A stretch of 64,000 nucleotides of DNA from Balneolaceae bacterium (GTDB lineage: Bacteria > Bacteroidota > Rhodothermia > Balneolales > Balneolaceae), in assembly GCA_020832285.1 (NCBI GenBank), contig JAFIFB010000056.1:1-64000 (forward strand), in the 5' to 3' direction. This document shows positions 447-10,507 of this stretch, in pieces. Under the pieces are notes generated by a model, which saw only the letters and a list, made by a program, of their open reading frames with translations, did not search any database and was not told where the DNA came from. A program made the translations under genes and the position numbers. Numbering within the stretch: the first letter of the stretch is position 1; every line of letters begins with the position of its first letter.

Positions 447-872
447 TCAGGATTCATTTCCCACAACCTGAACTACTACATGGCGTTTACGCGGACGATT
501 ATCGTGATCGAGAATGATAATTTGTTGCCATGTGCCAAGAATACACTTTCCATCACGAAGCGGCACCGTAATTCCGGGTCCCATAAATGTGGAACGGATA
601 TGTGAAAATCCGTTGTCATCGCCCCATGTTTCTGAATGATGTGAACGCATATTTCGGGATGCAAACTCTTCGAGCTTTTCTTTGATGTCCTGAACGAGAG
701 CCGGTTCAAACTCCATTGTTGATACCGATGCGGTTGAACCCACGGTAAACACATGGCAAAATCCTTCTTGGATGCCGCTCTTTTTTACGATGGAGTTTAC
801 TTTTTCGGTAACATCGTGTATATCAGAGTAGCCCTTGGTTTTCAGGTAGATATCTTTTGTATGAATCTTCAT
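447..872 (-). CDS. YjbQ/UPF0047-family protein
   Basis: A 141-residue protein of the YjbQ/UPF0047 family (COG0432), small single-domain proteins. Some members have been reported to have weak thiamine-phosphate synthase activity, but the cellular role is unsettled. The C-terminal half carries the family signature: HHSETWGDDNGFSHIR, then GPGITVPL, then LGTWQQI and a closing V-V-V-Q-V-V-G strand. The ATG at 872 is preferred over a start 24 codons upstream because family members begin near a beta strand like MKIHTKDIYLKTKG. The upstream extension is low-complexity and AT-rich. It stands alone with no obvious operon partner. Confidence 0.85.
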   Translation of the reverse strand: MKIHTKDIYLKTKGYSDIHDVTEKVNSIVKKSGIQEGFCHVFTVGSTASVSTMEFEPALVQDIKEKLEEFASRNMRSHHSETWGDDNGFSHIRSTFMGPGITVPLRDGKCILGTWQQIIILDHDNRPRKRHVVVQVVGNES

Positions 873-1051
873 ATCTGTATTATTTGGATTAAAGTTCAGT
901 GAGTTTAATTCAAGGTAAGTTATTGTATAAAAATACTCATGCATTTAGTCCGGATAACTGATTCAGATATTTTACTCAACAAAGCAAAGCTTTTATCACT
1001 TTGGAAACGTATCTGATTACCTTGAGAATTTCACTTTTTCAGAAGAATATT

Positions 1052-1198: not shown

Positions 1199-1251
1199 TT
1201 TTCAATCATTTTTGTTGCATTTCATTTTCCGAACCGATAGTTTCTTAATGA

Positions 1252-1323
1252 ATGAAATCAATAATGATACATACCAATTGGTGGTGGCCCGGCCGAACAT
1301 ATCAGGCAGTGGAATCACTATAA
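1252..1323 (+). CDS. trpL: trp operon leader peptide with three consecutive Trp codons
   Basis: A 23-codon open frame starts at ATG 1252 (a second in-frame ATG lies at 1264) and ends at TAA 1321-1323. Its core reads N-W-W-W-P-G-R, encoded by TGG TGG TGG at 1279-1287. A TGA immediately upstream (1249-1251) fixes the longest start. It lies 73 nt before trpE and is followed by a terminator overlapping the trpE leader. Size, position and Trp clustering match attenuator leader peptides. A ribosome stalled at the Trp codons would leave 1306-1312 free to form the antiterminator. No strong Shine-Dalgarno sequence is seen, as is usual in this phylum. Confidence 0.85.
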   Translation: MKSIMIHTNWWWPGRTYQAVESL

Positions 1324-1384
1324 GTTAATAGTATCATCAAAGAAATTTTTTAACCCACTGCAGTTTTCTGGAGTGGGTTTTTTT
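1306..1384 (+). promoter_or_regulatory. Tryptophan transcription attenuator (antiterminator/terminator)
   Basis: Two mutually exclusive structures are visible. The terminator pairs AACCCACT (1352-1359) with AGTGGGTT (1372-1379), with a short inner CAG/CTG stem, and ends in a seven-T run at 1378-1384. The antiterminator pairs GCAGTGG (1306-1312) with CCACTGC (1355-1361), which includes the left terminator arm. Region 1306-1312 lies about 20 nt past the Trp codons and within reach of a ribosome sitting at the leader stop (1321). Stalling at Trp therefore favours read-through and complete leader translation favours termination. I did not find a strong 1:2 pause hairpin. Confidence 0.85.
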
Positions 1385-1396
1385 ATTTTAGGAACC

Positions 1397-2863
1397 ATGA
1401 ATTTTGAAACTTTTTCGAAACTGGCGGATCAGTACTCTGCAATACCTGTATCACGAAGAATGCTGGCTGATGTGTTGACACCCGTTTCTCTGTTTTTATC
1501 GATCCGTGAAGAAGCAAAATATCCTTTTTTATTTGAATCGGTTGAAGGGGGGGAGCAGCTTGCCCGGTATTCATTTTTGGGATGCAATCCCTATCGAGTT
1601 TTAAGGTTTGATGGTGATACGGTAACGTTAACAGATCAAAATGGTGCTGTTGAAGTATTAGATGATAGTTATTTCGATGCTCTGAATCGCCTCACCACAG
1701 AACATTCAGAACCTAAACTTCCTGACTTACCGCGGCTTACCGGAGGCGCTGTTGGTTTTTCTTCTTACGATACGGTCCGCGAAGTTGAAATACTGCCGGA
1801 TGTTCCGGAATCTGATCTTGACATTCCGGAAGCGATTTGGTCGTTTTATGATGAAGTGTACGCTTTCGATCACGTTAAGCAGCAGATCGTTTTGATGAAA
1901 ACGGTATTTATTGATAAAGAGACCGATCTTCGCAAAGCGTATGATGCAGCGCAGAAATCCCTCAGCAGGATGGAGGAACAGGCTGTTCGGAAAGTTTCCC
2001 TCGGTGGAAGTTTTAAGCTTGATTCATCCAAACTTTCCAGCAATGTGGAAGAGAACCGGTTTCATTCCATGGTGAAAAAAGCCAAAGAATACATTTACGA
2101 AGGTGATATTTTCCAGGTGGTTCTTTCCCAGCGATTTGAAGTTCCGTTTGAGGGCGATAGTTTTACCCTCTATCGTGCACTCAGGATGGTGAATCCCTCA
2201 CCCTACCTGTTTTTTCTCGATTTTGAAGATTTTTCAATGGTCGGATCATCTCCTGAAGTGTTGGTACGTGTCACCGATACAGAAGCACGCCTGTTACCGA
2301 TTGCCGGTACTCGTCCCCGCGGAAAAAACCATGAGGAAGACCTCGCATTTGAGGAGGACCTTAAACACGATCCCAAAGAAATTGCAGAACATATCATGCT
2401 GGTGGATCTGGGCAGAAATGATCTTTCCCGGGTTTGCAAATCGGGAACCGTACATCTTGAAAGAAATCAGTCCATTGAACGGTTTTCCCATGTGATGCAC
2501 ATTGTCTCTGATGTGGTTGGAGAAATTGCCAGTGACAAAACATCTGTTGATGCACTGATGCAGTGCTTCCCAGCCGGAACGGTAAGTGGCGCTCCCAAAA
2601 TTCGTGCCATGGAAATAATCGACGAACTGGAACCGACCAAACGAGGCCCTTACGCCGGAGCCGTGGGCTATTTCGATTTTTCAGGAAATATGGACACCTG
2701 TATTGTGATCCGTACCATGCTGGTAACTGGTAATTCAGTGTACATCCAGGCCGGTGCCGGAATTGTTGCAGACAGCGACCCGGAAAAAGAATTTGAAGAA
2801 ACAAAAAACAAAGCCGGTGCCCTTGTGGAAGCATTGAGCGTGGCTTTGGAAATCACAAATTAA
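1397..2863 (+). CDS. trpE: Anthranilate synthase component I
   Basis: Catalyses, with TrpG, conversion of chorismate and glutamine-derived ammonia to anthranilate, the first committed step of Trp synthesis. It is 488 residues, normal for TrpE. The N-terminal feedback-site motif appears as LFES at residues 45-48. The chorismate-binding domain shows PIAGTRPRG, EIAEHIMLVDLGRND and SGAPKIRAMEI, then a GPYAGAVGY stretch. ATG 1397 is chosen because the longer frame begins with GTG inside the attenuator T-run. It is the first structural gene after the leader and attenuator, so it should respond to charged tRNA-Trp and, through LFES, to free Trp. Confidence 0.97.
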   Translation: MNFETFSKLADQYSAIPVSRRMLADVLTPVSLFLSIREEAKYPFLFESVEGGEQLARYSFLGCNPYRVLRFDGDTVTLTDQNGAVEVLDDSYFDALNRLTTEHSEPKLPDLPRLTGGAVGFSSYDTVREVEILPDVPESDLDIPEAIWSFYDEVYAFDHVKQQIVLMKTVFIDKETDLRKAYDAAQKSLSRMEEQAVRKVSLGGSFKLDSSKLSSNVEENRFHSMVKKAKEYIYEGDIFQVVLSQRFEVPFEGDSFTLYRALRMVNPSPYLFFLDFEDFSMVGSSPEVLVRVTDTEARLLPIAGTRPRGKNHEEDLAFEEDLKHDPKEIAEHIMLVDLGRNDLSRVCKSGTVHLERNQSIERFSHVMHIVSDVVGEIASDKTSVDALMQCFPAGTVSGAPKIRAMEIIDELEPTKRGPYAGAVGYFDFSGNMDTCIVIRTMLVTGNSVYIQAGAGIVADSDPEKEFEETKNKAGALVEALSVALEITN

Positions 2864-2932: not shown

Positions 2933-3928
2933 ATGAGCAAACAAAAAACAATCCTGTCCGGAATTCAACCTTCAGGAAAACTCCATATAGGAAATTATTT
3001 TGGCGCGATGCGCCAGCACATACGGATGCAACAGGAGGGAGACGCTTTTTATTTTCTGGCAAACTATCACTCTCTTACATCTGTGAATGACGGTGAATTA
3101 CTCAACCAGTATACCATGGATGTGGTTTTGGATTACCTTGCCCTTGGCCTCGATCCCGGGAAATGCACTTTTTTTGCACAGAGCGATGTACCCCAAACCA
3201 CCGAACTTGCCTGGATTCTGGGTTGCCTGACTCCGGTTTCGCTAATGGAAAAAGGTGTAGCATATAAAGATAAGGTTACAAATGGATTGAACCCAAATAT
3301 TGGATTATTTACCTACCCGATTCTTCAGGCAGCCGATATTTTAATCTATCATTCCGATCTGGTTCCGGTGGGAGAAGATCAGAAACAGAACATCGAAATT
3401 GCGCGCGATCTTGCCGGGAAATTAAACAGGGCTTACGACCGGGAACTTCTCACCATTCCCGAAGATTACATCCTGAAAAGTGTGGCCACCGTGCCCGGTA
3501 TCGACGGAAGAAAAATGAGCAAATCTTATGGAAATACAATAGATATCTTTGATGAAGGAAAATCACTTAAGAAAAGGGTGATGTCGATTCAGACCGATTC
3601 TACACTTCTCGAAGACCCCAAAGACCCGGATAATTGCAATGTCTTTGCTCTTATTAAACTCTTTGCCGATGAAGAAAAGATTAATGAAATTGCCGGGAAA
3701 TACCGGGCTGGTGGTTTTGGCTATGGACATGCAAAGAAGGAACTGCTGGGATTGATAAACGATTACTTTGCTGAAGCCCGTGAGCGACGAAAAAAGCTCG
3801 AAAAAGATATGGATTACGTACACGATGTATTGCAGGAAGGCGGCAAAAAAGCCCGCGAACGTTCGGAAACAGTTATGGAACCCATTCGCGAGGCGACTGG
3901 ATTATTTCGGAGTTTTAAATATGAATGA
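2933..3928 (+). CDS. trpS: Tryptophanyl-tRNA synthetase
   Basis: Class Ic aminoacyl-tRNA synthetase that charges tRNA-Trp in the cytoplasm; 331 residues, the usual bacterial length. The HIGH-equivalent is HIGN at residues 18-21 and the KMSKS loop lies near 194-198. ATG 2933 gives the standard MSKQKTILSGIQPSG opening; a longer frame would translate the intergenic repeat. It sits between trpE and trpG, so it lies behind the trp attenuator and would be co-induced when Trp-tRNA is low. A 16-bp hairpin begins at its stop codon. Direct repeats flank the trpS segment, suggesting a later insertion into the operon. Confidence 0.96.
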   Translation: MSKQKTILSGIQPSGKLHIGNYFGAMRQHIRMQQEGDAFYFLANYHSLTSVNDGELLNQYTMDVVLDYLALGLDPGKCTFFAQSDVPQTTELAWILGCLTPVSLMEKGVAYKDKVTNGLNPNIGLFTYPILQAADILIYHSDLVPVGEDQKQNIEIARDLAGKLNRAYDRELLTIPEDYILKSVATVPGIDGRKMSKSYGNTIDIFDEGKSLKKRVMSIQTDSTLLEDPKDPDNCNVFALIKLFADEEKINEIAGKYRAGGFGYGHAKKELLGLINDYFAEARERRKKLEKDMDYVHDVLQEGGKKARERSETVMEPIREATGLFRSFKYE

Positions 3929-3976
3929 GTATCGAGTATCAAGTATCGAGTAATGAGAGTCTTGATACTCGATACT
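3928..3976. repeat. Palindromic intergenic repeat, copy B, at the trpS stop
   Basis: A perfect 16-bp inverted repeat: 3928-3943 (AGTATCGAGTATCAAG) against 3961-3976, with a 17-nt loop. The first base of the stem is the last base of the trpS TGA. It belongs to the same family as copies at 2878 and 4406. It could weaken transcription beyond trpS, but the T-run (3990s) is not directly adjacent. Confidence 0.8.
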
Positions 3977-3981
3977 TGACA

Positions 3982-4332
3982 CTATTCAACTTTTTTAATA
4001 AACGTATAAAGAATTTTTTGAACTTCAATGAGCGATTGGTTGAGTTCTTCAAAACTCTCATCCGCCATATATGAAAGATTTTTAGAAATGAATAATTGTG
4101 TTTCCAGTTCATATGCAGAACCATTTGCAACCTTTAAAAAGCGGGCAAATTCTCTGCTTGATGATCTTCCGGCTCCTTCAGCAATATTCGAAATGATGGA
4201 AACAGTACATCTTCGTATTTGTGATGTCAGTCCATATACTTCATGTTTCGGAAAATTTGATGTTGCTCTATATACAGTTGTGGCCAAATCATCCGATTAC
4301 TGCCAAACAATGAGTTCTTTATAATTATGCAT
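3982..4332 (-). pseudogene. Four-helix-bundle protein (23S rRNA intervening-sequence family), nonsense codon 12
   Basis: From ATG 4332-4330 the frame reads MHNYKELIVWQ, then TAA (4299-4297), then continues SDDLATTVYR... through GLTSQIRRCTVSIISNIAEGAGRSS to a natural stop. Both halves match the small four-helix-bundle family (TIGR02436-like), where a Lys commonly follows W-Q, so an AAA-to-TAA change is likely. The remaining frame could only start at TTG 4287 and would lack helix 1. It is oriented against the trp operon and lies between two palindromic repeats. Function of the family is unknown. Confidence 0.75.
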
Positions 4333-4405
4333 GGTAATTTTATTTATTTGGAAAATGGATTCTGTTTATATGAACCGATTTTTTCAAAATCCTTACAAAA
4401 AAATC

Positions 4406-4436
4406 TCACTACTCACTACTTGATACTCGATACTCA
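4406..4436. repeat. Intergenic repeat, copy C, ending at the trpG start
   Basis: Contains TACTTGATACTCGATACTCA at 4417-4436, an exact 20-bp direct repeat of 2903-2922. It is only a half palindrome. The trpG ATG follows at 4437. The AT-rich 4333-4405 next to it holds no gene that I can see. Confidence 0.75.
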
Positions 4437-5012
4437 ATGATTTTAATCATCGACAACTACGACTCATTCACCTACAACCTGGTACACATTGTGGGCTCGG
4501 AAACCGACGACTATAAAGTTGTAAGAAACGATGCAATCACTGTGGATGAAATCCGGGTATTAAATCCGGACAGAATTTTGATTTCACCCGGACCGGGCCG
4601 CCCGGAGAATGCCGGTATTACTGAGAGGGTGATTGATGAGTTAGGGAAAGAGATTCCGATTTTGGGGGTCTGTCTCGGCCATCAGGCTATTGGACAGGTT
4701 TTTGGAGCTAAAGTGGTTCATGCCCCAAGCCTGATGCATGGGAAAACATCAAACATCTACCATGATGGGAAATCGGTCTTTCGGGATGTGGAAGATGGTT
4801 TTATTGCCACACGTTACCATTCACTGGCCCTTCAGCCCGATACGGTGCCTGATGAACTTGAAGTGAGTGCCCGCACCAATGATGGGGTGATTATGGGAGT
4901 TCGTCATAAAAAGTATCCGATTGAAGGAATTCAGTTTCATCCCGAAAGTATTTTAACAGTTGAAGGTCCCAAAATTGTAAAAAACTGGATGAAGAATGAA
5001 AAATTCGTCTGA
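4437..5012 (+). CDS. trpG: Anthranilate synthase component II (glutamine amidotransferase)
   Basis: Class I glutamine amidotransferase that supplies ammonia to TrpE; 191 residues. The triad is visible as C79 in GVCLGHQ, H168 and E170 in FHPES. The oxyanion-site motif SPGPGRPENAG lies at 50-60. The start ATG abuts repeat copy C. The stop TGA is provided by a TCGTCTGACGA motif belonging to the following repeat region, so the C-terminus may have been set by repeat insertion. It is a stand-alone subunit, not fused to trpD. A pabA role in folate synthesis could be shared, since no other amidotransferase of this type is in the window. Confidence 0.95.
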   Translation: MILIIDNYDSFTYNLVHIVGSETDDYKVVRNDAITVDEIRVLNPDRILISPGPGRPENAGITERVIDELGKEIPILGVCLGHQAIGQVFGAKVVHAPSLMHGKTSNIYHDGKSVFRDVEDGFIATRYHSLALQPDTVPDELEVSARTNDGVIMGVRHKKYPIEGIQFHPESILTVEGPKIVKNWMKNEKFV

Positions 5013-5026
5013 CGATGCATACCCAA

Positions 5027-5183
5027 TTCGGCTGACGACTGAGGTCCAAATAGAATTGGGGGCAGTTAATGTTCAAGTCGTCTGAGGAATCGTTCATTGA
5101 TAGCAAGAAATTCGACAGCCGACTGGTTTGGTGTCAATTTGATAGTTTGATATTCAAAAAAGTCGGCAGTCGAGGGTAATTAG
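5027..5183. repeat. Tandem intergenic repeat, unit 1 (~157 bp)
   Basis: First of two head-to-tail diverged units filling the trpG-trpD gap. Shared blocks are CTGACGACTGAGGT, AAGTCGTCTGA, AAGAAATTCGACAGCC and AGTTTGATATTCAAAAA. In this unit GCCGAC pairs with GTCGGC across about 40 nt. No open frame of note was found. Confidence 0.75.
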
Positions 5184-5336
5184 TTCGTCTGACGACTGAG
5201 GTTCCGATTGACTTGAAGACCATGAATGCTTAAGTCGTCTGACGAATCGTTTATTGTTAGGAAGAAATTCGACAGCCGGCTGGTTTGGAATCAAATGAGT
5301 AGTTTGATATTCAAAAAGCCGGCAGTCAATGGGTAT
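5184..5336. repeat. Tandem intergenic repeat, unit 2 (~153 bp)
   Basis: Second unit, with the same ordered blocks as unit 1. Here the equivalent arms are GCCGGC and GCCGGC, so the A-T pair of unit 1 is a G-C pair: a compensatory change that preserves pairing. It ends about 35 nt before the trpD GTG. The 11-bp quasi-palindrome TCGTCTGACGA recurs in both units. Confidence 0.75.
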
Positions 5337-5371
5337 AGATATAATATTTTATAATTAAACCACAAAACAAA

Positions 5372-6412
5372 GTGTCAAAATCATTTACAGAAGTTTTAGA
5401 GATTATTTCGAGGCAGCAAAATCTAACTGCTGATGAAGCTTCGTTTGCCATGCAGAAGATTCTTACCGGTGAAGTTTCCAATGAAGAAGTCGCCGCTTTT
5501 TTAATCGGGATGCGGACGAAAGGGGAGACCATCACCGAACTCACGGCGTTTGTGAAAGAGATGAAACAGGTGGCTGTAAAAGTAGAAGTAGACACCAAAC
5601 ATGCTGTGGATCTCTGTGGAACGGGAGGGGATAAATCGGGCACGTTCAACATCTCAACCGCTGCGATGTTTGTGGTGGCTGGTGCAGGAGTCCCTGTCTT
5701 AAAGCACGGCAACCGGAGTGTATCGAGTAAAAGCGGAAGTTATGATGTTTTGGAAAGCCTCGGCGCAGTGCCCAACCTTCAAAAAGAGCAGGTTGAAGAA
5801 CTCTTCAATGAAACACAAATGGCTTTCATGTTTGCCCCCAATTTTCATCCGGCAATGCGATTTGTGATGCCTGCCCGGCGTGCACTAAAAATGAGAACCT
5901 TTTTTAACATGCTGGGCCCGCTACTGAATCCCGCCGATGTGAAATGCCAGGTGGTGGGTGCATTTAGTAAAGATGCTGCTTCTGCAATGATCCAGATACT
6001 TGGCAATCTTCAAACAGAAAGTGCATTTACGGTGAGTGCCCACGATGGCCTTGATGAAGTTAGCCTAACCTCACAAAGTGAAATATTTGAACTGAAAACC
6101 AATCTTTCAGGCAATTCAATCACTTTTGACCCGGATTCACTGGGTTACAGGAAGGTGAACCCGGAAGAACTAAAAGGCGGAGACGCAGATCACAATGCTG
6201 AAATTATTCGAAACATCGTTGAGGGTAAAGCCACTGCTGCACAAAAAAATATCACGGAACTAAACGCTGCATTTGCCATCCGGGCATCCAATATAACGGA
6301 TAGTCTTGAAACGGCTAAAGAGATGGCAGGAGATAGCTTAAACTCTGGTCAGGCGCGATTAAAGCTGGATCTGTTTATCTCGGAATCACAAAAAATAGCC
6401 GGATCAAAATAA
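5372..6412 (+). CDS. trpD: Anthranilate phosphoribosyltransferase
   Basis: Transfers phosphoribosyl from PRPP to anthranilate, the second Trp-pathway step. It is 346 residues, full length. The PRPP/metal motif GTGGD is at residues 83-87 and KHGNR at 111-115, followed by S-V-S-S-K-S-G. Start is GTG at 5372; an upstream ATG in frame is absent. It follows the tandem repeat region and overlaps trpC by one base (TAATG). The N-terminal helical domain is intact and it is not fused to an amidotransferase. Confidence 0.95.
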   Translation: MSKSFTEVLEIISRQQNLTADEASFAMQKILTGEVSNEEVAAFLIGMRTKGETITELTAFVKEMKQVAVKVEVDTKHAVDLCGTGGDKSGTFNISTAAMFVVAGAGVPVLKHGNRSVSSKSGSYDVLESLGAVPNLQKEQVEELFNETQMAFMFAPNFHPAMRFVMPARRALKMRTFFNMLGPLLNPADVKCQVVGAFSKDAASAMIQILGNLQTESAFTVSAHDGLDEVSLTSQSEIFELKTNLSGNSITFDPDSLGYRKVNPEELKGGDADHNAEIIRNIVEGKATAAQKNITELNAAFAIRASNITDSLETAKEMAGDSLNSGQARLKLDLFISESQKIAGSK

Positions 6413-7224
6413 TGGCTGATATTTTAGAAAAGATTTCAGATCAAACCAAAGTAGACCTCACCAAACGAAAAAGGGAGGTTTCGCTGCGCACACTGGAATC
6501 CATGCCGGGATACGAAAAAGAACGGATCAGTTTTGGTAACGCCTTGAAGAAAAAGGGGTCGGTTTCCATCATTGCTGAAATCAAAAAAGCATCTCCATCA
6601 AAAGGGGTTATTCGTAAAGATTTTGACCCGCTGAAGATTGCAGAGCAATACATCGAAAATGGCGCTTCAGCTATCTCAGTTTTGACGGATGAACCTTTCT
6701 TTAAAGGTTCATTAAGTTATCTCGAAAAAGTATCAATAATTAGCCCGATTCCATTGTTGCGCAAAGATTTTATCGTTGATCCCTACCAGATTAAAGAAGC
6801 AAGGGCATTTGGTGCAGATGCCGTTCTTTTGATCGTAACGATGTATGAAGGAAGCCAGCTTTCCGAACTGCTGGCGGCTGCAAAAGAGTTTCGCCTTGAT
6901 GTGCTGGTCGAATGTTATTATGAGGAAGAACTGAAGGGACTGAACTGGGATGAGATTGAGATTGTTGGTGTAAACAATCGGAATTTATCTACATTCGAGG
7001 TTGATTTACATCGGGGGGTAGAAATTTTAAGTCAGGCACCTGAACAAGTGATTAAAGTATCGGAAAGCGGTCTCCATAAACCCGGTGATCTGAACGTTTT
7101 ATTCGAAAATGGTATCCATTCAGCGTTAATTGGGGAGCATTTTATGCGCCAGCCAGATATTGGAAATGCAATGAAAGAATTTATTGACAAATTTGAAAAT
7201 ATAATTAATTCAAATGTCGAATAA
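6412..7224 (+). CDS. trpC: Indole-3-glycerol phosphate synthase
   Basis: Decarboxylates and cyclises CdRP to indole-3-glycerol phosphate; 270-residue TIM barrel. The family motif AEIKKASPSKG is at residues 55-65, with LRKDFIVDPYQI near 120-131 and VGVNNRNLSTFEVD further on, then SESGL and a final GEHFMR. ATG overlaps the trpD stop by one base, indicating translational coupling. It is a separate protein from TrpF, unlike the enterobacterial fusion. Confidence 0.96.
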   Translation: MADILEKISDQTKVDLTKRKREVSLRTLESMPGYEKERISFGNALKKKGSVSIIAEIKKASPSKGVIRKDFDPLKIAEQYIENGASAISVLTDEPFFKGSLSYLEKVSIISPIPLLRKDFIVDPYQIKEARAFGADAVLLIVTMYEGSQLSELLAAAKEFRLDVLVECYYEEELKGLNWDEIEIVGVNNRNLSTFEVDLHRGVEILSQAPEQVIKVSESGLHKPGDLNVLFENGIHSALIGEHFMRQPDIGNAMKEFIDKFENIINSNVE

Positions 7225-7262
7225 TGAACAGAGATAAACATATTATAAATATCAAATAACAG

Positions 7263-7931
7263 ATGTTTGCTGAACCGGAAAAACGAACCAAAGTAAAAAT
7301 TTGCGGCCTTACCACACTTGAAGATGCACGGTTTGCGGCGGGTGCACTGGCCGATTATTTGGGTTTTATCTTCTACAATGGCAGTCCCCGTCATATTGAG
7401 CCTGCCAAAGCTGGCGCCATTATTAATTGGATTGAAGGGCCTGAAAAAGTAGGTGTTTTTGTAAACCAGCCACTGGATGATGTGAACACCATTGCCAGGC
7501 AAACGGGTATTGACCTGGTTCAGCTTCATGGAAATGAATCTCCCGAATATTGTGAGTTGGTAGAACTTCCGGTAATAAAAGCCTTTCATGTTTCGAAAGA
7601 GACAACCAGTGAAGATCTGCGATCGAAAATTATCGGATATGAAACTGTCGCGGACTTTTTCTTATTCGACACTAAAATTGATGGCGCCTGGGGCGGAACC
7701 GGCCAAATATTTGATTGGAATATTCTGAAAGATGTGGTGGATGAAAAACCATTTTTTCTATCCGGCGGATTGAATGTCGAAAATATTGAAATGGCAGTGA
7801 AAACCGTTCATCCTACAGTAGTTGACCTTTCCAGCGGGCTCGAAGAATCACCCGGCCTGAAAGACTTCGACAAAATCGAACGGTTTTTCGATGTAATGCG
7901 TGATATATGGGAAAAACAGGAAATTGATTAG
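7263..7931 (+). CDS. trpF: Phosphoribosylanthranilate isomerase
   Basis: Catalyses the Amadori rearrangement of PRA to CdRP; 222 residues. Catalytic Cys14 is in KICGLT near the N-terminus, and the general acid Asp lies in the LFDTKIDG stretch, followed by GGTGQIFDW. The phosphate-binding end reads FLSGGLN and VDLSSGLE. It follows trpC after a 38-nt AT-rich gap and presumably shares its transcript. The enzyme acts before TrpC in the pathway even though it is encoded after it. Confidence 0.95.
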   Translation: MFAEPEKRTKVKICGLTTLEDARFAAGALADYLGFIFYNGSPRHIEPAKAGAIINWIEGPEKVGVFVNQPLDDVNTIARQTGIDLVQLHGNESPEYCELVELPVIKAFHVSKETTSEDLRSKIIGYETVADFFLFDTKIDGAWGGTGQIFDWNILKDVVDEKPFFLSGGLNVENIEMAVKTVHPTVVDLSSGLEESPGLKDFDKIERFFDVMRDIWEKQEID

Positions 7932-7982
7932 TTATTTGTTAATTGTTTATTCAAAATATACAATTCAAAAGTCGATTACATT

Positions 7983-8426
7983 ATGGAAACAAAAATCCTT
8001 TCTTTTGAAGATCTTAACGTTTGGCAGCTTGCCAGAGAAATTAGAAATGTAGTGTTTGAACGTGTAAAAAACTTTCCCAAAGAAGAACATTACCGGCTGT
8101 CAGATCAAATGATCCGATCTTCAAGATCGATTACCGATCAGATTGCTGAGGGATACGGACGATTTCACTATCAGGAAAATATTCAGTATTGCCGGCAGGC
8201 CAGAGGTTCTGCATATGAGTTAAAGAATCAATTCATAACCTCACTTGACTGTAAATATATTTAGAATGAAGAATACAATGCATTTGAGAATGATATTATA
8301 CGATGCTTTAAAATGATAAATGGTTACATCAACTATCTTAAAAAAGCCAAATCAAATTCATCGAATAGAACAAAAGAAGAGGGTTTGCCCTACAACGTTG
8401 AAATAAATAAATCGACTGTCGATTAA
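7983..8426 (+). pseudogene. Second four-helix-bundle gene (IVS family), broken by TAG
   Basis: An ATG frame of 93 codons matches the family (FEDLNVWQLAREI, YRLSDQMIRSSRSITDQIAEGYGR, ARGSAYELKNQ) and stops at TAG 8262-8264. The same frame continues with NEEYNAFENDIIRCFKMING-Y-INYLKK, the expected last helix, to TAA at 8424-8426. A single substitution has therefore truncated it. It lies between trpF and trpB on the coding strand. It is divergent from the copy at 3982, so it is an independent acquisition, not a recent duplicate. A truncated 93-residue product might still be made. Confidence 0.7.
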
Positions 8427-8453
8427 CAATTACACCAATTTCCAATAACGAAT

Positions 8454-9644
8454 ATGAAATACACAGCACCAACAAAACAAGGATACTTCGGCAAATATGG
8501 TGGCAAGTTTGTGCCAGAAATTTTGATTCCGGTTCTCGAGGAATTGGAAATTGCATACGAGGAAGTACAGAATGATCCGATTTTTCAAAAAGAGTATCAC
8601 GACTTGCTTCGTGAATATGTAGGGCGGCCCACTAAGCTGACCTACGCTAACCGGCTCACAGACTATTATGGCCGTGGTAAAATCTATTTTAAGCGGGAAG
8701 ACCTCTGCCACACCGGTGCACACAAAATAAATAATGCCATTGGTCAGCTTCTGCTGGCTCAAAAAATGGGCAAAACCCGAATCATCGCAGAAACGGGCGC
8801 AGGGCAGCACGGCGTGGCCACAGCAACGGCCTGTGCAAAGTTCGGGTTCGATTGTGTGATTTATATGGGCGCCGAAGATATGGAGCGCCAGAAATTAAAT
8901 GTAGACCGCATGAGGCTCCTTGGAGCTGAAGTACGCTCGGTAGAGAGTGGCTCACAAACCCTGAAAGATGCCACTAACGAAGCCATACGCGATTGGGTTA
9001 CCAATGTTGAGAATACTTTTTATATCATCGGTTCAGTGGTTGGTCCGCATCCCTACCCTATGATGACCCGGAATTTCCACAGGGTAATTGGTGAAGAGAC
9101 TAAAGATCAACTCAAAGATTTTGAGGGAAGATTACCCGACTATCTCATTGCCTGCGTTGGAGGCGGGAGTAATGCAATAGGATTTTTCTATCCCTTTATT
9201 GAAGATGAGGATGTAAAAATGATAGGAATTGAAGCAGCTGGCCTGGGTGCGGAAACCAATCAGACCGCAGCAACATTGACGATTGGTACACCCGGTGTAC
9301 TGCACGGTTCCATGAGCTACTTACTTCACAATGATGAAGGACAGATTCAGCTTGCACACTCCATCAGTGCCGGGCTTGATTACCCGGGAATTGGCCCCGA
9401 ACACTCCTACCTGCACGATACAAAACGTGTTCATTACTTTGGCATTACAGATAAACAAGCCATGAATGCTGTCAAACTGATTTCTGAAAAAGAGGGAATC
9501 ATTCCCGCCATTGAAACTGCGCATGCTATGGCCTATCTCGAAACCCTGATGCCGCTCACTCAAAAAGATGAGATTGTAGTAGTGAATTGCTCCGGTCGGG
9601 GTGATAAAGATATGAAGACCATATCGGAATGGTTTTCCAAATAA
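8454..9644 (+). CDS. trpB: Tryptophan synthase beta subunit
   Basis: PLP enzyme that condenses indole with L-serine; 396 residues, typical of TrpB1. The Schiff-base lysine is K91 in HKINNA, the phosphate loop GGGSNA is near 236, and [12 protein letters not shown] supplies the substrate carboxylate site. It forms an alpha2-beta2 complex with the TrpA encoded 41 nt downstream, with indole channelled between sites. The ATG follows the second four-helix-bundle pseudogene. Confidence 0.97.
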
Positions 9645-9685
9645 TTTTAACACCTGATTACACAGATAAATACTAAATTTCAGAA

Positions 9686-10507
9686 ATGAACAGAATGATA
9701 GCTCAACAATCACGAATCCAGTCTCTGTTTAAAAACCGGGATTCTGATAAAAAAATTATGTCTCTCTTTATTACGGCCGGTTATCCCGACCTTGAATCTA
9801 CCGTTGACCTGGTATTGGGATTTGAAAAAAACGGCGCTGAAATTATTGAGATTGGAATGCCTTTTAGTGACCCCTTGGCCGATGGCCCAACCATTCAGTA
9901 TTCCAACAATGTAGCCATTGAGAATGGAATTACGATGAACAAAATCTTTGAAATGGTTTCTGAGATTCGCAAGCAGTCAGAAATTCCGATTATTTTGATG
10001 GGTTACATTAACCCGGTGCTGCGATATGGGGCAGAGGCCTTCTGTAAAAAAGCAGAAGAGAGCGGTGTCGATGGATTGATCATACCGGACGCCCCCATCG
10101 AAGAATCATCCATAATATCAGATCATGCAAAAAAACATAAACTGGATCTTATTTTTCTTGTGGCTCCCAACTCAACCGACAGCAGAATGAAACAGGTAGA
10201 TGAGCATAGCTCAGGATTTGTATATTGTGTTTCGGTAACAGGTGTTACAGGTGCACGAAGTGGAGAAGAGGTGGCAAAATCCGTTGAACGGTTTATCTCG
10301 CGGGTAAATCAGCATGTTACTAAAAATCCAAAACTTGTTGGATTTGGAATTAAAAGCCATGAAGATGCAGAAATAATCGCAAAAGAAGTTGATGGGTTTA
10401 TAGTTGGGAGCGCGTTAATAGATTCCATCAAAAAAGATTATCCAAATAAAGATTGGAAGCAAAACGTTTTTTCTTTTGTGAAACAATTAAAATATGGGAA
10501 TATTTGA
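9686..10507 (+). CDS. trpA: Tryptophan synthase alpha subunit
   Basis: Cleaves indole-3-glycerol phosphate to indole and glyceraldehyde-3-phosphate; 273-residue TIM barrel. Catalytic Glu55 (EIIEIGMPFSDP) and Asp66 (LADGP) are present, with the phosphate site VSVTGVTGAR and a late VGFGIKS. An alternative start at Met4 is possible. It is the last Trp-pathway gene and lies 26 nt before the DUF4837 lipoprotein gene. Confidence 0.96.
   Translation: MNRMIAQQSRIQSLFKNRDSDKKIMSLFITAGYPDLESTVDLVLGFEKNGAEIIEIGMPFSDPLADGPTIQYSNNVAIENGITMNKIFEMVSEIRKQSEIPIILMGYINPVLRYGAEAFCKKAEESGVDGLIIPDAPIEESSIISDHAKKHKLDLIFLVAPNSTDSRMKQVDEHSSGFVYCVSVTGVTGARSGEEVAKSVERFISRVNQHVTKNPKLVGFGIKSHEDAEIIAKEVDGFIVGSALIDSIKKDYPNKDWKQNVFSFVKQLKYGNI

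Follow-up and report, generated by a model that had tools for sequence, protein, structure and literature searches.

The question raised by this locus is how transcription of a complete set of tryptophan genes is controlled from the intergenic region of about 300 nt that separates trpE from its divergent neighbor, a UPF0047 gene. The window, which denotes the whole analysed stretch of 64,000 nt, is from Rhodohalobacter (Balneolaceae, Balneolota), a salt-loving genus of a phylum that GTDB groups with Bacteroidota; the nearest relatives of its trpE are those of Rhodohalobacter and other Balneolaceae. The cluster has the order trpE-S-G-D-C-F-B-A, entirely on the plus strand, and by its Pfam domains comprises the complete tryptophan branch of the pathway together with tryptophanyl-tRNA synthetase.

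447-944, minus strand: UPF0047 gene, divergent, with which the window starts
1397-2863, plus strand: trpE, anthranilate synthase component I, first structural gene (Pfam Anth_synt_I_N, Chorismate_bind)
2933-3928, plus strand: trpS, tryptophanyl-tRNA synthetase, second gene of the cluster (Pfam tRNA-synt_1b)
4437-10507, plus strand: trpG, trpD, trpC, trpF, trpB and trpA (Pfam GATase, Glycos_transf_3, IGPS, PRAI, PALP, Trp_syntA)

Read from the sequence, trpESGDCFBA is very probably governed by a classical ribosome-mediated transcription attenuator (trpL), which would respond to the supply of tryptophan. Its elements lie immediately upstream of trpE; a direct check found the leader, its Trp codons, the arms and the terminator exactly where the first-pass annotation had placed them.

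1252-1323, plus strand: leader ORF (trpL) of 23 codons and a stop, MKSIMIHTNWWWPGRTYQAVESL, whose ATG, Trp run and nearby stop are kept in relatives
1279-1287, plus strand: three tandem Trp codons, TGG TGG TGG, the sensor, conserved across Balneolales
1306-1312, plus strand: segment 2, the antiterminator 5' arm GCAGTGG, fully paired in 24 aligned leaders and covarying between families
1355-1361, plus strand: segment 3, CCACTGC, the partner of either segment 2 or segment 4, as seen by comparison of leaders
1352-1389, plus strand: intrinsic terminator (stem 1352-1363/1368-1379), followed by a T-rich tail

The coding part of the leader spans 1252-1320 and its TAA stop 1321-1323. When the 187-nt region is simulated by a first-order Markov model, an ATG-started, closed ORF with WWW arises by chance in 18 of 200,000 sequences, and of the four occurrences of TGGTGGTGG in the window (both strands) only the leader copy sits in an ATG-started ORF. 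In the terminator, AACCCACT (1352-1359) pairs with AGTGGGTT (1372-1379); the full stem contains one mismatch and closes on a TTTT loop. The main T-run stops at 1384, leaving 12 nt to the ATG of trpE (1397), and a second run, TTTT, ends at 1389. Folding of the 139-nt leader gives -40 kcal/mol (z = -3.65). Conservation in relatives speaks more strongly than these figures for a genuine element.

The comparison drew on trpE and the sequence in front of it from 59 relatives in the genus, family and order and from further members, in total about 82 Balneolales loci, a few of which are the same genome obtained through two collections. Loss of the Trp triplets in relatives had been named at the outset as an outcome that would speak against attenuation; the triplets are instead conserved across the order, with at least three adjacent Trp codons (WWW or WWWW) in 69 of the roughly 82 leaders (68 found by script, and L141, whose leader lies just beyond the script's 330-nt limit). 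Four further loci have WW, one W-C-W and one a single W, while seven have no Trp-rich ORF. The run is flanked by freely varying residues, as in MKNSLTHNNWWWHGQ, MIFPNAHINNIWWWSIR and MFNRNTHISNWWWWPFC.

The same holds for the two mutually exclusive stems, whose absence from relatives had been named likewise: both the 2:3 arm and the terminator stem (3:4) persist throughout the order, and where bases differ between families they change in a coordinated way. The seven 2:3 pairs are kept in 24/24 aligned leaders from Rhodohalobacter and its nearest genus, where slid registers keep 14-82%, and RNAalifold finds 12 terminator pairs in these leaders, three of them with compensatory changes. The antiterminator pair is GCAGTGG/CCACTGC in Rhodohalobacter, CGGCAGTGG/CCGCTGCCG in one subclade, AACAGTGGG/CCCACTGTT in other genera of Balneolaceae, and GCTGAAAGCGG/CCGCTTTCAGT or TGAAGCGG/CCGCTTCG in other families; antiterminator and terminator arms thus change in concert between families, while the 2:3 arms are nearly invariant within the genus. 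When partners are swapped among 67 leaders, in permutations that ignore the tree and therefore yield guides rather than probabilities, native 2:3 pairing beats 1000/1000 permutations. Swapped within groups, it beats at least 4998/5000 in the two more divergent ones (z = 3.9 and 3.6); inside the window's genus the result (z = 1.2, 675/5000 permutations reaching native) is uninformative, since the arms hardly vary there.

The first-pass annotation described these two stems and missed the third classical element. Folding reveals it as a long hairpin that begins inside the leader ORF, spans the Trp codons together with segment 2 and ends near position 1337; its base, identified by covariation and folding, is formed by two arms.

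1264-1270, plus strand: segment 1, ATGATAC, the 5' arm at the base of the 1:2 hairpin
1331-1337, plus strand: GTATCAT, the 3' arm at the base of the 1:2 hairpin

The window's own 1:2 hairpin is only modestly more stable than its shuffles (z = -1.68). In other leaders the base takes the form AAACGTA/TACGTTT, CAACGTA/TACGTTG, ATGGTTTAA/TTAAACCAT, ACGCACA/TGTGCGT, CTGCACA/TGTGCAG or ACAACAATT/AATTGTTGT. As its position shifts between species, it was tested by partner swapping and not by column-based pair counts. For native and control pairs alike, the score is that of the best helix among many positions; read again as guides, the mean best-helix scores are 17.1 for native and 13.3 for swapped partners, with 0/1000 permutations reaching native (67 leaders). 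The 1:2 base covaries strongly even within the genus (z = 6.0), as well as in the rest of the family (5.3) and in other families (4.9), with 0/5000 permutations reaching native in each case. In divergent species, RNA folding yields the three expected states.

The position of the promoter relative to the leader, which the earlier description did not mention, points to a transcript that probably starts at or close to the leader ATG.

1215-1243, plus strand: predicted promoter, TTGCAT (1215-1220), a 17-nt spacer and TAGTTT (1238-1243), recognized by its geometry in relatives

From TAGTTT to the leader ATG there are 8 nt, and the predicted start lies 0-3 nt before the ATG. Most of the 67 Balneolales leaders share this geometry: TTG(A/C)..., a spacer of mostly 17 nt, TAnnTT, and mostly 5-10 nt to the ATG, the boxes being TTGACA or TTGCAT/TTGCTT, followed by TAAATT, TATATT or TAnnTTTG. 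The last of these is the promoter box described for Bacteroidota (PMC7366714). If transcription starts 6-8 nt past the box, the 5' end would coincide with the ATG, and the leader mRNA is thus probably leaderless or nearly so, as judged from the conserved geometry. The promoter pattern occurs once in the window, against 0.16 expected, and near-identity to the 98% identical sister locus L002 begins just upstream of the promoter, with abrupt divergence further upstream. An alternative promoter at 1170-1198 is less likely; it is not kept in that sister locus. Upstream of the promoter (1080-1160) lies a 15-nt inverted repeat, AAACCCGCAATGTTT ... AAACATTGCGGGTTT, whose absence from L002 suggests a recent insertion and not an operator.

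These elements suggest the following mode of action. Transcription would begin at the leader ATG or only a few bases away from it, so that a ribosome could start at once and melt the base of the 1:2 hairpin. Where charged tRNA-Trp is scarce, it would stall on the three Trp codons, where it covers segment 1 while segment 2 stays free to pair with segment 3; no terminator would form, and trpE and the genes behind it would be transcribed. Where tryptophan is plentiful, the ribosome would reach the stop (1321) and cover segment 2, so that segments 3 and 4 form the terminator. In the absence of a ribosome, the 1:2 hairpin would hold segment 2, leading again to termination.

If the ribosome is taken to cover -17 to +14 nt and segment 2 is searched from 12 nt after the first Trp codon, the geometry fits this scheme in 67/67 leaders: segment 2, observed to start 16-30 nt after the first Trp codon, is free during a stall at that codon and covered by a ribosome at the stop. 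The observation that the stop at 1321 lies past the antiterminator arm is correct for the window, but the accompanying claim that attenuation requires this position does not hold; in several relatives the stop falls before or inside segment 2, as in L048, whose leader ends WWWPIC-stop. As a ribosome at the stop covers segment 2 in all 67 leaders, a stop past the arm is sufficient but not necessary. The anatomical features of a trpL-type attenuator are all found here: a conserved leader with tandem codons, a 3:4 terminator, an exclusive and covarying 2:3 stem, a 1:2 hairpin, and a geometry that suits their alternation. The original interpretation as an attenuator is thus supported as a whole, with the Trp run and the 2:3 and 3:4 stems conserved through coordinated changes.

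The same observations weigh on other explanations. The terminator might be constitutive or controlled by a protein (TRAP-like or another RNA-binding regulator), with the Trp-rich ORF incidental, and it precedes trpE in a marine Balneola clade without such an ORF, so a terminator alone can persist. This is very unlikely to be the case here, however, as the Trp run is conserved through most of the order and beyond, and the alternative stems covary and are correctly placed relative to the Trp codons and the stop. Least probable of all, to the point of being almost negligible, is that a T-box or other riboswitch senses uncharged tRNA-Trp directly: the region 1150-1450 contains no T-box match in Rfam even at E up to 10, and the mere ~130 nt from the predicted start to the terminator are taken up by the ORF and the attenuator arms, although trp operons with trpS, as here, are typical T-box targets in Firmicutes. 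Finally, the leader could act on translation of trpE, by reinitiation or coupling, and not on transcription termination; its stop is separated from the trpE ATG by 73 nt, and reinitiation has been suggested for leader peptides in general (PMC4833913). The conserved intrinsic terminator with its T-run after the leader makes this, too, highly improbable, and the distance from terminator to trpE, which ranges in relatives from about 11 to 105 nt or more, suits transcription control better than coupling.

Transcription attenuation of the trpL type being the preferred reading, the question becomes how the leader relates to known ones. At the curated (gathering) cut-off, no Rfam family matches in the window; the two best sub-threshold matches (E up to 10) are PyrG_leader, which was set aside as it fits mainly the terminator, and Trp_leader (RF00513), which scores 24.9 bits against a curated cut-off of 41. 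With RF00513 and E. coli trpL the window shares a leader peptide with tandem Trp codons, the 1:2, 2:3 and 3:4 stems, and a U-run terminator before trpE, but no sequence homology at that cut-off. Whereas E. coli trpL has two Trp codons, the window leader has three; it further differs from the proteobacterial attenuator in that the 1:2 base lies upstream of the Trp codons, the transcript is probably leaderless, and trpS belongs to the cluster. Bacteroid-trp (RF01692), listed as a cis-regulatory candidate in Bacteroidetes (Weinberg 2010, PMC2864571), resembles it in its position before trp genes, and several of its copies encode short WWW leaders (for example MQTILNNTWWWNNLRQTS) followed by a terminator. 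In a set of 118 genomes of the phylum, however, its model matches a single family, f27, and none of the Balneolales; nor does it match in the window. Similar in layout are trpL of Streptomyces lividans, MFAHSTRNWWWTAHPAAH, with a WWW leader, an mRNA starting at the ATG and a terminator before trpE (PMC8079986), and peTrpL/rnTrpL of Sinorhizobium meliloti, with a leader mRNA starting at the ATG and a terminator before trpE (PMC7298713). As leaderless Trp leaders have been measured in these two species, the arrangement is not new in kind; the start is only predicted here, the species belong to other phyla, and common descent is unsupported. The attenuator of the window thus works like those of the trpL type, outside the sequence families RF00513 and RF01692 as modelled.

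A covariance model built from the 24 leaders matches 30/31 genomes, as one strong copy in each, with the best match located at trpE in nearly all; the remaining matches are weak (E about 1e-5 to 1e-3) and look like ordinary terminators. Leaders with WWW or close variants also precede trpE in many of the Rhodothermales families sampled, and WWW leaders with terminators in many other families of the phylum (L170-L236), outside the Rfam Bacteroid-trp model. No such leader is found before trpE in some families, such as f13, f18 and f24, where trpE may not be the first gene. A search of the whole genome for a His attenuator, by five tandem His codons, gave three matches, none with attenuator anatomy; two lie inside long open reading frames, and the third belongs to a 23-codon frame that lacks an in-frame ATG.

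The mechanism is very probably ordinary ribosome-mediated Trp attenuation, known as such but apparently little described in its extent in this phylum. Attenuation by leader peptides is textbook knowledge for Proteobacteria and Actinobacteria, and these were the only groups in which a 2010 paper listed such systems before its own finding in Firmicutes (PMC2965389). A literature search from which subscription journals were mostly missing returned no report of such an attenuator in Balneolota or Salinibacter, and priority is therefore not claimed. Its conservation through Balneolales, many Rhodothermales and other Bacteroidota carries the Trp attenuator far beyond the one known Rfam family, and provides a comparative set for following changes in attenuator stems, the loss of Trp codons and function on leaderless mRNAs. 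It is conceivable, but rather unlikely, that a WWW-leader attenuator on a leaderless transcript was the ancestral regulator of Trp synthesis in the Bacteroidota-Balneolota-Rhodothermota, with trpS feeding back on tRNA-Trp charging and the leader RNA or peptide possibly acting in trans as in S. meliloti.

In every Balneolales locus long enough to test, trpS adjoins trpE, as it does in one Rhodothermales genome (L159), so the gene order suggests that the synthetase on which the sensor depends is itself probably under attenuator control. If trpE and trpS are co-transcribed, the switch would tune both Trp supply and tRNA charging, the quantity that it senses. The trpE-trpS gap (2875-2930) is filled by an inverted repeat, AGTATCAAGTATCGAG/CTTGATACTCGATACT-like. 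The trpS-trpG gap (3929-4436) measures about 510 nt in the window and only ~14 nt in L018; it contains, on the minus strand, an ORF (3982-4287) of the 23S rRNA-intervening sequence protein family (PF05635).

Attenuation control is not indispensable, as the Trp run is reduced in a few MAGs and absent from the marine Balneola clade and from L037. The reduced runs occur in the Rhodohalobacter MAGs L055, L017, L022 and L024 (one W in L055; EWW, WCW or WWN in the others), which keep antiterminator and terminator and form a natural series of weakened sensors. In the Balneola clade (L029, L072, L074-L077), a promoter-like box and the terminator stand before trpE and the leader ORF with its Trp codons is gone; the segment between box and terminator is conserved among these species, and another signal may therefore be used there.
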